From NCBI RefSeq assembly GCF_913774235.1, contig NZ_CAJYDW010000019.1:186001-250000 (forward strand): a stretch of 64,000 bases of DNA. Direction: 5' to 3'. The notes beneath the pieces are model-generated. The model had not been told where the DNA came from. It saw nothing but the letters and a program-made list of their open reading frames with translations, and did not search any database. The position numbers and the translations under genes are program-made. Shown here piece by piece: positions 8,326 to 14,990 of this stretch (position 1 is its first letter; each line of letters begins with the position of its first letter). Origin of the DNA: an uncultured Pseudomonas sp. (GTDB lineage: Bacteria; Pseudomonadota; Gammaproteobacteria; Pseudomonadales; Pseudomonadaceae).

Positions 8326-8390
8326 TTTTGGTGTCTTGGCTGGTTATCGAGGTCTGTTGAGGCTTTTTGTTTCGCCCACCCGGGCGAGTC

Positions 8391-8414
8391 ACTTTTGCCA
8401 ATCGCGGCAAAAGT
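8391..8414. repeat. End hairpin of composite copy 1, left
   Basis: Arms ACTTTTGCC (8391-8399) and GGCAAAAGT (8406-8414) pair perfectly. A smaller stem, TCGCCC with GGGCGA (8372-8387), precedes it. The same two-stem layout is found at the other three ends of the composite copies. Confidence 0.8.
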
Positions 8415-8629
8415 AACCAAAAACGCTTGCCCCGGACATCCGGCCCTGCGCTGCGCTCCGGGTCCGCTCACGCCAGCGCCGTTCCGGGGTCGGTCCAGAT
8501 GGGCCGTCCATGGCCCACTGGACCTCTCGCCGCATCCCTGCGGCTCGACCCACTCCACGGCACTGGCGTTCGCCCTCCTGAACGGGGCGATTTCGCCAGC
8601 CTGAAAATTTTGGTTGAGGAGCCCGTAGC

Positions 8630-8655
8630 GTGGACAACGCCGGAGCCTTGTCCAC
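8630..8655. repeat. GTGGACAA palindrome
   Basis: Arms GTGGACAA (8630-8637) and TTGTCCAC (8648-8655). This is the C/G-substituted subtype of the GTGGAAAA palindrome, with both arms changed so that pairing is kept. Confidence 0.75.
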
Positions 8656-8676
8656 TGATGGTGTGGGTGCCTACCA

Positions 8677-8702
8677 GTGAAAAACGCTGCGCGGTTTTCC
8701 AC
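8677..8702. repeat. GTGGAAAA-type palindrome (one mismatch)
   Basis: Arms GTGAAAAAC and GTTTTCCAC, with one broken pair relative to the other copies. Confidence 0.65.
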
Positions 8703-8931
8703 GCTATGAATCACTATGCCGCCTATTTAAATACCGAATTCTCAGGCTGGCGCCCCGTCCCCGTCAGTGAGGCCGAGTGTAGGTGTCGCGGAGGGGGATG
8801 CGAGGCAGGACGCCGAGCAAGGCGCGAGGGGCAGGAGGCCCCTTCGTGCCGTGCCCTCGGAGAGGCACCGGAGCGAGGGGACCCGGAGCGAAGCGTAGGG
8901 CCGAACTGTTGGGGTGTGCTTTCTTTTGCTT

Positions 8932-8959
8932 ACTTTTCTTTGCACAAGCAAAGAAAAGT
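8932..8959. repeat. End hairpin of composite copy 1, right
   Basis: Arms ACTTTTCTTTGC (8932-8943) and GCAAAGAAAAGT (8948-8959) form a perfect 12-bp stem with a 4-base loop, followed by the smaller TCGCC/GGCGA stem on the opposite strand (8962-8977). Confidence 0.8.
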
Positions 8960-9092
8960 GAGTCGCCGGCAAGGCGAAACAAGAGGTGTCAGCAGAACTC
9001 AGTAAGCAGCTGGGCATTTGTAAAGCCAAGATTGCAGCTCCGTAATGTTGGGCTTCGCTTACGCTCAACCCAACCTACGAAAGCAGGCGTCC

Positions 9093-9905
9093 CTACGCCA
9101 GATGCTTCAACCGCTCCACCAACAGCTCATGCAACTTCGGATCACCACAGGCCAGGATGGCCCCGCCCTGCTGGGCGTCACCGCCATCCCAGGCGGTCAT
9201 GCGCCCGCCGGCGCCTTCGATGATGGGGATCAGCGCCTGAACGTCGTAGGGCTGCAGGCCCGCCTCGATGATCACGTCGACGAAGCCCGAGGCCAGCATG
9301 CAGTAGGCGTAGCAATCGCCGCCGAAACGGGCCAGCTGCACCTCGGCGGCCACGGCGTCGAAGGCGGCCAGGCGTTCGGGAGTGTCGAAGATGTCGCGGC
9401 TGGTGCACATCAGCCGCGCCTGGGCCAGGCTGGCGCAGGGGCGGGTGCGCAGGGCGGCGCCGTTGCGCCAGGCGCCGGCCGGGGTACCCAGGTAGCGTTC
9501 GCCGGTGAAGGGCTGGTTCATCACCCCGATCACCGGGCGGTTGCCGTCGTTGAGCGCCACCAGGGTGCCCCACAGCGGCAGGCCGGTGATGAAGGCGCGG
9601 GTGCCGTCGATGGGGTCCAGCACCCAGGTCAGGGGGCTGCTACCGGCAACGTTTTCCTCTTCTTCACCGAGGATGCCGTGGTCCGGATGGGCGTCCTGGA
9701 TGAGTTCGCGCATGGCGCGTTCGGCGGCCTTGTCGGCCACGGTGACCGGGTCGTAGCGGCGACCGGCGACGGCGGCGTCGCCCTTGTCGTCCACTGCCAG
9801 CTGGGCACGGAAGTAGGGCTGGATAGCCACGGCGGCGGCGTCGGCCAGGCGCTCGGCGAAGCGTTCGTAGTAGGAAATCTCGGCAGCGGTCAGGCTCATG
9901 CTCAT
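9093..9905 (-). CDS. hisN: HisN-like inositol-monophosphatase-family phosphatase (probable histidinol-phosphatase)
   Basis: This 270-residue cytosolic Mg-dependent phosphatase has the IMPase motifs GILGEEEE (first metal site), [15 protein letters not shown] (second) and a C-terminal [17 protein letters not shown]. The segment [23 protein letters not shown] is characteristic of HisN-type histidinol-phosphate phosphatases rather than SuhB/CysQ. HisN would convert histidinol phosphate to histidinol in histidine synthesis. The ATG at 9905 overlaps the stop of the adenine deaminase gene upstream, so the two are co-transcribed. Other small phosphomonoester substrates are possible. Confidence 0.82.
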
Positions 9906-10852
9906 TTCACCAGGCGTGCATCGAGGCTGTTCTGCGCCAGGCGCCGGGCCTGCTCCTGGGTCATGCCCAGGCCTTCGTGCAGGGCTATGAAGTTCTCGGT
10001 GACGTAGCCGCCGAAGTAGGCCGGGTCGTCCGAGTTGACCGTGACCTTGAGGCCGCGATCGAGCATCTTGAGGATGGTGTGCTGGCTCATGTCGTCGAAC
10101 ACGCAGAGCTTGGTGTTGGACAGCGGGCAGACGGTGAGCGGGATCTGCTGGTCGATCAGGCGGGCCATCAGGCGCTCGTCCTCGAAGGCGCGCACGCCAT
10201 GGTCGATCCGCACCACGCCGAGCTGGTCCAGGGCCTCCCAGATGTATTCTGGCGGACCTTCCTCGCCGGCGTGGGCCACGGCCGGAAAACCCTCGGCGCG
10301 GGCGCGGGCGAAGACGCGCTTGAACTTGCTCGGCGGATGGCCCTGCTCGGAGCTGTCCAGGCCGACGGCGATGAAATGGTCACGGAACGGCAGCGCCTGG
10401 TCCAGGGTGGCCTGGGCGGCGTCTTCGGAGAGATGGCGCAGGAAGCTCAGGATCAGCCCGCTGGTCACGCCCAGTTGCTTTTCCCCGTCGGCCAGCGCCT
10501 GGGTGATGCCGCGCACCACCACCTCGAAGGGAATGCCGCGGTCGGTGTGGGTCTGGGGATCGAAGAAGGGCTCAGTGTGGATGACGTTCTGTTCCTTGCA
10601 CTTCTGCAGATAGGCCCAGGTCAGGTCGTAGAAGTCCTGCTCGGTGCGCAGCACGTCGGCGCCAGCGTAGTAGAGGTCGAGGAATTCCTGCAGGTTGCCG
10701 AAGTTGTAGGCGGCACGCAGGGCTTCGACGTCCTGCCAGGGCAGGGTGACGCCATGGCGCTCGGCCAGCTTGAACAGCAGCTCGGGCTCCAGGGTGCCTT
10801 CCAGGTGCAGGTGCAGTTCGGCCTTGGGCAGGGCATTGAGCCAGTCGTACAT
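9902..10852 (-). CDS. Adenine/adenosine deaminase family protein, probably adenine deaminase
   Basis: I choose the ATG at 10852, preceded by GAGG on the minus strand; the 316-residue protein then begins [20 protein letters not shown], where HLHLEG carries the first two zinc ligands. [17 protein letters not shown] has the third His and catalytic Glu region, RIDHGVRAF the next His, and [11 protein letters not shown] the zinc-ligand Asp pair. The closest well-studied relative I know of is P. aeruginosa PA0148, characterised as an adenine deaminase that makes hypoxanthine for purine salvage; transfer of that function is inference. It is translationally coupled to the hisN-like gene. Confidence 0.88.
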
Positions 10853-11050
10853 GGAAACCTCGGGATAGCTTGAATCAAGAAAAGATGGACGATTGTCGCA
10901 CGCTTTGCCCGGTTTTCCGCAGCCCTCCGGGTTCCCCCTGACCGATGTACGGTGGTCCTGGTCGCCAGAAATTCCCAGCATTCCACGCTTTGGGCCAGCA
11001 AAAGGCCATAACGCCCGCAGCGGGTCCGAATCTGACTAGAATCGGGAAGC

Positions 11051-13977: not shown

Positions 13978-14103
13978 GGGGAGGGTTGCTGCTTAGGTTG
14001 GGTTGAGTGCAAGCGAAGCCAAAGGCTTTTGGGGTTTGAGTTGTTGTACTGGCTGATTATCGCGGTTTGCTGATGGTTTCTGTTTCGCCCACCCGGGCGA
14101 GTC

Positions 14104-14127
14104 ACTTTTTTCAAACGCCAAAAAAGT
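14104..14127. repeat. End hairpin of composite copy 2, left
   Basis: Arms ACTTTTTT (14104-14111) and AAAAAAGT (14120-14127), perfect 8-bp stem, with the TCGCCC/GGGCGA stem just before it. Confidence 0.8.
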
Positions 14128-14341
14128 AACCAAAAACGCTTGTCCCCACGTTTCGGCCCTCCGCTGCGCTCCGGGTGCCCTCGTCCCGGCGCCGTGGCGG
14201 GGGCACGGCACGAAGGGGCCTCCTGCCCCTCGCGCCTTGCTCGGCGTCCTGCCTCGCAACCCCCGCCACGACACCGGAACTCGGCCTCACTGACGGGGAC
14301 GGGGCGCCAGCCTGAGGCTTGGGTGTTCGTGGAGCTGTAGC

Positions 14342-14367
14342 GTGGAAAACCGCGCAGTGTTTTCCAC
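14342..14367. repeat. GTGGAAAA palindrome
   Basis: Arms GTGGAAAAC and GTTTTCCAC pair around an 8-base loop; part of composite copy 2. Confidence 0.8.
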
Positions 14368-14416
14368 GGGCAGTCCCTCAATCATCGAAACCCAGGAACC
14401 TTAAGGCACTGCCTTT

Positions 14417-14480
14417 ATCGCGGCCATGGGCCGCTCCTACAGAAGCCGGATACCCCGTAGGAGCGGCCCATGGCCGCGAT
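14417..14480. repeat. REP inverted pair nested in composite copy 2
   Basis: Arms 14417-14440 and 14457-14480 are perfect 24-base inverted REP copies. Composite copy 1 lacks this pair at the matching place, so it looks like an insertion. Confidence 0.92.
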
Positions 14481-14534
14481 TTCAGCTGCGTCAGGTCGTG
14501 GTGGCGTTTTACACCGGTGAGCACTCAGCCATCA

Positions 14535-14560
14535 GTGGACAAGGCTTTGCCGTTGTCCAC
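14535..14560. repeat. GTGGACAA palindrome
   Basis: Arms GTGGACAA and TTGTCCAC; counterpart of 8630-8655 in copy 1. Confidence 0.75.
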
Positions 14561-14831
14561 GCTACGGGTTCTTCAACCAAAACTTTCCGGCTAGCGAATC
14601 GCCCCGTTCAGAAGGGCGAACGCCAGGGTCGTGGAGTGGGTCGAGCCGCATGGATGCGGCGAGAGGTCCAGTGGGCCATGGACGGCCCATCTGGACCGAC
14701 CCCGGAACGGCGCTGGCGTGAGCGAGACGTAGCGTAGCGGAGTAACAGCCGCAGGCTGGCCCGAAGGGCGAGCAACGCGAGTCACCCGGAGCGCAGCGTA
14801 GGGCAGGATGGTGGGGCAAGCGTTTTTGCTT

Positions 14832-14869
14832 ACTTTTTTCCGGGGCGCGCAGCCGCGACTGAAAAAAGT
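14832..14869. repeat. End hairpin of composite copy 2, right
   Basis: Arms ACTTTTTTC (14832-14840) and GAAAAAAGT (14861-14869) close a 20-base GC-rich loop, followed by the TCGCCC/GGGCGA stem. Confidence 0.75.
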
Positions 14870-14990
14870 GACTCGCCCGGGTGGGCGAAACAAGAAGTAC
14901 CAACGAAGCTCGATAAATAGCTAGGGCACCAATATGAGAGTTAACCCTGGCAACGTTGGGCTTCGCCGCGCTCAACGCCAGCCCCCAACG

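Follow-up and report, generated by a model that had tools for sequence, protein, structure and literature searches.

In the current view, a small number of dedicated sponge RNAs, such as CsrB and RsmX, RsmY and RsmZ, control the activity of the global regulator CsrA/RsmA, and a GTAG tag is the mark of repetitive extragenic palindromic (REP) sequences, two of which, inverted and separated by a short spacer, make up the whole of a REPIN. In the part of one report on which we draw, a hexaloop ANGGAX placed directly on its stem is the high-affinity CsrA/RsmE site (PMC4005645). Two adjacent hairpins with AYGGAY-type loops mark the Rfam family TwoAYGGAY (RF01731), which Rfam types as Cis-reg and for which CsrA binding was predicted, according to an excerpt of an earlier study (PMC4333381). 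Dispersed intergenic repeats R0-R200 of P. fluorescens, of 50-352 bp, several with inverted arms and with a bias towards convergent genes, are described in an extract of another (PMC2718517). Here we analyse a composite non-coding element found twice in a window of 64,000 nt from an uncultured Pseudomonas sp. (NZ_CAJYDW010000019.1, positions 186,001 to 250,000). Its best reading, which we favour with some reserve, is a dispersed, back-to-back, putative CsrA/RsmA-binding RNA repeat; it resembles the R0-R200 repeats, with which it was compared by description only, in dispersal, inverted arms and gene context.

The earlier note on this DNA had described two inverted copies of one composite, and the comparison bears this out: the copies are inverted relative to each other, keep one internal order of common parts and share exact blocks of 73, 58, 38 and 30 nt. 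The first is the identity reported in module A (8465-8537 against 14652-14724), and the more than 50 identical bases reported in module B are 58 nt (8799-8856 against 14201-14258) plus 38 nt. The reported part list holds for the modules and their order; it misses about 60 extra nucleotides that separate module A from its end hairpins in copy 2, as well as a REP pair that lies inside the core in copy 2 and outside the element in copy 1. A hidden Markov model (HMM) of the core, built from A and relatives, identifies modules A and B as homologous units of about 230 nt each, in opposite orientation and reading outwards around REP-like palindromes. In the model we propose, the composite would consist of two homologous non-coding RNA units set back to back, A running leftwards and B rightwards, each with a predicted multi-branched core carrying two GGA-loop hairpins and then a 3' tail of two hairpins; REP-like palindromes separate the units and mark the outer ends. 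The parts are as follows, in positions of the window (T, tail; P1 and P2, core palindromes; OUT, outer palindrome).

8257..8325, no strand: REP pair GTAGGAGCGGCC, outside copy 1
8328..9080, + strand: composite copy 1 (locus h), order T-A-P1-P2-B-T-OUT, ends approximate
8367..8433, - strand: tail of unit A, copy 1, two 3' hairpins on the unit strand
8465..8586, - strand: core of unit A, copy 1, TwoAYGGAY-type, loops AGGGAT and ATGGAC, core HMM 89.2 bits
8486-8551, - strand: Rfam TwoAYGGAY near-match in that core, 38.1 bits, under the cut-off of 43
8625..8658, + strand: P1, copy 1, GTAG-tagged GTGGACAA palindrome, REP-like
8675..8708, - strand: P2, copy 1, GTGGAAAA palindrome, REP-like, inverted relative to P1
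8760..8878, + strand: core of unit B, copy 1, homologous to A and oppositely directed, loops CAGGANG, core HMM 35.8 bits, E 3.8e-9
8903..8985, + strand: tail of unit B, copy 1
9047..9080, + strand: OUT palindrome, copy 1 (GTTGGGCTTCGC), REP-like
13994..14985, - strand: composite copy 2 (locus i), order OUT-T-B-P2-REP-P1-A-T-OUT, ends approximate
13994..14023, - strand: OUT palindrome, left end, copy 2
14084..14146, - strand: tail of unit B, copy 2
14178..14316, - strand: unit B, copy 2, below the reporting limit of the core HMM (E 1e-5), 90% to B of copy 1
14338..14367, no strand: P2, copy 2
14417..14481, no strand: REP pair in the core, copy 2
14532..14565, no strand: P1, copy 2
14603..14724, + strand: core of unit A, copy 2, loops ATGGAT and ATGGAC, core HMM 92.7 bits, single-sequence fold
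14784..14932, + strand: tail of unit A, copy 2
14954..14985, + strand: OUT palindrome, right end, copy 2

The closest described family is TwoAYGGAY. Neither window copy reaches its gathering score of 43; thus, the unit is classed as a homologue of TwoAYGGAY and not as a member by Rfam's rule. Nine loci were searched with Rfam, among which the orthologue of copy 2 in the relative G006 scores 43.6 bits and eight loci of the window's own genome stay below 43. Elsewhere, 12 of 40 family loci, sampled in six other genera (22 genomes), reach the cut-off, as do 4 of 17 loci outside the family and 1 of 2 in a plasmid collection. Two neighbouring ANGGA (AYGGAY-type) hairpins are present in all 40 sampled family loci and in both A cores of the window, and the 3' tail follows the core in 37 of the 40 by a strict pattern and in the other three by eye. 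That the unit is a relative of TwoAYGGAY is therefore well supported, and we hold it with confidence: the two adjacent hairpins are shared, and several relatives besides the G006 orthologue reach the cut-off. What differs is that the hairpins here belong to a longer unit with a 3' tail, mostly arranged back to back and homogenised between loci. In the literature searched, mostly at the level of titles and listings, neither a name nor a report for the whole dispersed unit was found; the earlier statement that it has no named family thus stands for the whole and fails for the core.

The structure of the unit was evaluated on 61 related units (51 from six other genera and 10 from the window's genus). 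Because both the core HMM and the four-helix structure were derived from aligned units, the share of paired cells, 81.1% against 72.0% in shuffled alignments, is biased upward, and shuffled and slid versions serve as controls; none of 500 shuffles reached this share. The same holds for pairs changed on both sides (22 against 14.1), for doubly changed cells (240 against 80.4, standard deviation 13.0; at most 55 in slid versions) and for the covariation score (0.313 against 0.161; at most 0.124 when slid), each reached by 0 of 500 shuffles. A consensus fold made independently of the four-helix structure recovered 19 of its 36 pairs and added six others; 17 of these 25 pairs are doubly changed. 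The hexaloop C-ANGGAN-G is found in 58 of the 61 units at loop 1 (the other three have CA-GGACG) and in 59 at loop 2. On the strand carrying GGA, G.U wobbles outnumber A.C mismatches by 163 to 24 in 2414 cells over 40 pairs (the 36 of the four-helix structure and four from the consensus fold), and by 89 to 20 in 1935 cells when pairs are chosen regardless of G.U or A.C. Selection on that strand as RNA would be expected to leave such an asymmetry; the surplus of G.U sits in helices 1 to 3, with 148 G.U and 8 A.C.

The units are arranged back to back well beyond the window. In 110 loci, neighbouring units less than 600 nt apart are divergent in 62 cases, tandem in 6 and convergent in 1 (n=69); these loci hold 181 units, 36 of them isolated and another 13 isolated close to a locus edge. 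Because an exact pattern with a single version of the stem was used to find them, the 110 loci were left out of the covariation set. Core-HMM matches in the 40 sampled family loci, each a short stretch of DNA, reveal a partner unit in 25, of which 24 are divergent and one is tandem. The spacers examined, 26 of the 62, hold different palindromes in different species, or none, which suggests that the window's copies acquired their internal REPs later. Insertion of an insertion sequence between paired units was considered and rejected: zero neighbouring unit pairs lie 600-4500 nt apart in the 110 loci, as far as the core HMM, which can miss weak B units, lets such pairs be seen; locus h of G008 has about 1.2 kb. 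This stretch (L112 5525-6763) lies between P1 and module A and is possibly an inserted element. Among other palindromic features, short tandem runs (GGCTAC, GGGCTAC) stand beside P1 in some composites (spacers L174 and L182), GTGGAMAA palindromes number from at least 24 to 113 per genome in five genomes, and, among the matches listed, six of them form a regular array about 158 nt apart at G003:C1:289345-290162.

What could such a unit do? Transcription together with CsrA/RsmA binding is in our judgement the likeliest function, with the odds somewhat in its favour. The GGA strand would most likely be transcribed and each loop pair would most likely bind one CsrA/RsmA dimer; if so, the dispersed copies may act as extra binding sites, as a sponge or a tether. 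The window's genome has two CsrA-family genes. With CsrB and RsmX/Y/Z, the A-type units share ANGGAX loops on stems, the published high-affinity CsrA/RsmE form (PMC4005645); they differ from these RNAs by two such loops per core, by many dispersed copies, and by a promoter and a GacA box that our scans did not find. In the sections used here of a P. putida study (PMC7937890), all three Rsm proteins pulled down intergenic RNA at ISPpu8 copies or insertion sites, and one target region is called "long palindromic", a likeness to our element by description only.

Several observations weigh against this reading of the element as a CsrA/RsmA-binding RNA repeat. The same sections of the P. putida study name rsmY and rsmZ as the main, if not only, true Rsm antagonists (PMC7937890). 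Simple consensus scans gave no sigma-70-like promoter in either copy and 4 GacA-type boxes in the window against 5.04 expected. Isolated units in tandem gene contexts show no strand preference (5 same, 6 opposite, n=11); thus, read-through from the upstream gene is not favoured. The B units of the window's genus carry CAGGANG pentaloops, not hexaloops, and the window copies and eight own-genome loci fall under the TwoAYGGAY cut-off, as given above. Within the structure, further pair types hardly exceed the shuffles (50 against 47.0, with 45 of 500 reaching it), and helix 4, the second GGA hairpin with its stem, has no wobble asymmetry (15 G.U against 16 A.C), its lower six pairs being standard in about half of the cells. 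The high copy number also fits a parasitic DNA repeat.

The last point leads to the alternative that we take most seriously, although we give it a clear minority of our belief: a non-autonomous mobile DNA element, similar to a miniature inverted-repeat transposable element (MITE) or a REPIN, whose hairpins would be read as single-stranded DNA by a transposase acting in trans, with the GGA loops serving nuclease recognition and any transcript being incidental. Dispersed copies, at least 150 units in one genome, long inverted ends, REP-like palindromes at the core and ends, and the lack of wobble asymmetry in helix 4 all agree with it, as do two Y1_Tnp-family genes in the window's genome, one of them marginal, and the rarity of the element between divergent genes (3 of 69 against 59 of 278 in the background), as for many tolerated insertions. 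It is harder to reconcile with the G.U over A.C asymmetry of the outer stems, with a loop form equal to the CsrA site and with orthologous loci across five species. Of the hallmarks of a MITE, inverted ends are present; at the cleanest empty site, locus i of G005, one OUT palindrome stands where others have two around the element, and a separate target duplication is not seen there. With a REPIN or a bacterial interspersed mosaic element (BIME) the element shares its core P1-P2, an inverted pair of REP-like palindromes, and the outer palindromes are REP-like too, yet the REPIN definition holds for P1-P2 only, as units A and B are no part of a REPIN and in other species have other palindromes or none in the spacer between them.

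Gene context bears on a further possibility, that the elements are bidirectional transcription terminators or stabilisers of mRNA 3' ends between genes. With gene calls from a simple codon-usage script, 69 of 112 groups of units were classified (43 were dropped, 31 at locus edges and 12 too far from a gene); convergent genes flank 33 of the classified groups, tandem genes 33 and divergent genes 3, where the 278 background gaps divide into 34, 185 and 59. The enrichment of convergent contexts (33 of 69 against 34 of 278) and terminator-like stems, 4 in copy 1 against 0.9 expected and 3 in copy 2 against 1.7, would suit such a role, which nevertheless leaves the conserved GGA loops, the multi-branched core and the core covariation unexplained, and we consider it improbable. 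Sites for chromosome organisation near the replication origin are more improbable still. All 31 listed A-module matches in G002, G003, G006 and G009 lie within about 0.9 Mb of a parS pair, mostly on one arm and far from dif, with motifs that we take to be those of dif and parS; a terminus-linked clustering is ruled out by this mapping, which puts the copies on the origin side. The clustering near parS is weak evidence because the places are inherited by descent and not independent, and in G072, of another genus, the units (among the matches listed) are spread all round the chromosome.

The earlier note had further proposed that the inverted repeats flip the 5-kb segment between them or mark a transposon that carried it, a suggestion prompted by inverted copies with a 73-nt identity. 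The five enclosed genes were named correctly, as Pfam matches to Inositol_P (hisN-like), A_deaminase, Acyl_transf_3, Na_Ca_ex (chaA-like) and VTT (DedA-type) confirm. A 9.6-kb stretch was aligned to 12 genomes of the same genus and colinearity was read among the matches listed. The parts of the segment keep one order and strand in G002, G003, G005, G006, G007, G009, G010 and G011; in G008, the ninth element-bearing relative and a partly testable one, the segment is colinear as far as its split contigs allow. Four of these genomes have the segment yet lack modules A and B at one or both loci: G003 at locus h, G005 at locus i, and G002 and G009 at both. Therefore, the repeats neither flip nor define the segment, and we attach almost no probability to either form of the proposal. 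The reduced locus h of G003 (C1 ~774600-774690; L064 ~13800-13890), where the outer element ends meet at a short GTTTCGCC...GGCGAAAC palindrome, is a clean internal deletion. Within the segment, additional DNA sets the acyltransferase and chaA-like genes 4 to 20 kb further apart in four relatives, G005, G006, G010 and G011 (window 12181/12298).

It is the element itself, and not the enclosed segment, that is inverted. Relative to its flanks, it is inverted in 11 of 30 cross-species comparisons with one reference per place; locus h is flipped in 4 of the 6 relatives having the element (G005, G007, G010 and G011, not G006 or G008) and locus i in none of 5. The window's genome (5.13 Mb, 20 contigs) has 10 composite loci, from the best 40 of 101 candidates scored, so that more weak copies are possible, and wherever modules are present their order is constant, which bears out the note's view of one composite element. 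Seven are complete (T-A-P1-P2-B-T), one (locus g) has a single core palindrome and two lack module A; single or diverged units occur at two further loci. Across five species, elements occupy orthologous places a to i, six in all five species and three in two to four, and a tenth place, j, is found only in the window's genome. Copies at the same place are no more alike than others: similarity is 0.918 at the same place, 0.919 in the same genome and 0.918 with neither in common for module A, and 0.929, 0.936 and 0.929 for module B. Two versions of the large hairpin of module A are mixed at 7 of 9 places, with a same-place concordance of 0.444 against 0.490 when shuffled. Elements thus seem to overwrite one another between loci. 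We propose that homologous recombination through the inverted ends may flip the core and copy one locus onto another; such conversion would explain both the flips and the homogenisation.

The unit reaches far beyond the window's genus. By DNA search it is matched in at least 87 of 148 genomes of the family, and a covariance model counts at least 17 units in G003, 13 in G009, 24 in G006, 39 in G085, 46 in G130, 12 in G138, 17 in G119 and 150 in G072, the last a lower bound, since at most 150 candidates per genome were scored. A class-wide scan, made with strict filters and rough E-values, matched 12 of 274 sampled genomes; ten of these belong to nine other families. On the matched strand, two ANGGAN hairpins are seen in 11 of the 17 loci outside the family and a single one in the remaining 6; two of the four at the Rfam cut-off have units on both strands. 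Plasmid or phage origin was considered and rejected: phage matches were absent, and in the plasmid collection five large replicons matched in part. The TwoAYGGAY cut-off is reached over the full model in a Pseudoalteromonas piscicida replicon; an Aeromonas caviae replicon, with a single GGA-loop hairpin, stays under it, and one Variovorax and one Paraburkholderia replicon have the tail and no such hairpins. In the P. piscicida locus (L158 ~667), the last tail hairpin also has an ATGGAT loop, a third GGA site. A 69-nt stretch with an 80% match to the 3' tail occurs in 17 conjugative plasmids of the Bacteroides group. A protein-coding element was rejected as well: Pfam gave no match, at E up to 1, to seven long open reading frames of the two copies. 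Other RNA families came up in passing, a 5_ureB_sRNA match of 135.9 bits at L094 10153-10439 (+) and an nhaA-I riboswitch at 45199-45258 (+), the window's sole Rfam match at gathering score.

These results imply that where long inverted repeats flank genes, they need not act as DNA switches for those genes and can instead be paired structured RNAs. Were high-affinity sites carried by dozens of repeats, the copy number of a repeat would become a variable of the CsrA/RsmA network, and a testable role would be at hand for an Rfam family of unknown function. More broadly, and as a tentative proposal that may well fail, TwoAYGGAY-type RNAs in these gammaproteobacteria may not be single regulatory genes. 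They could form a genome-dispersed, back-to-back repeat that multiplies putative CsrA/RsmA sites (at least 150 units in one genome), titrating or living off a global regulator, inverting in place and evolving in concert.

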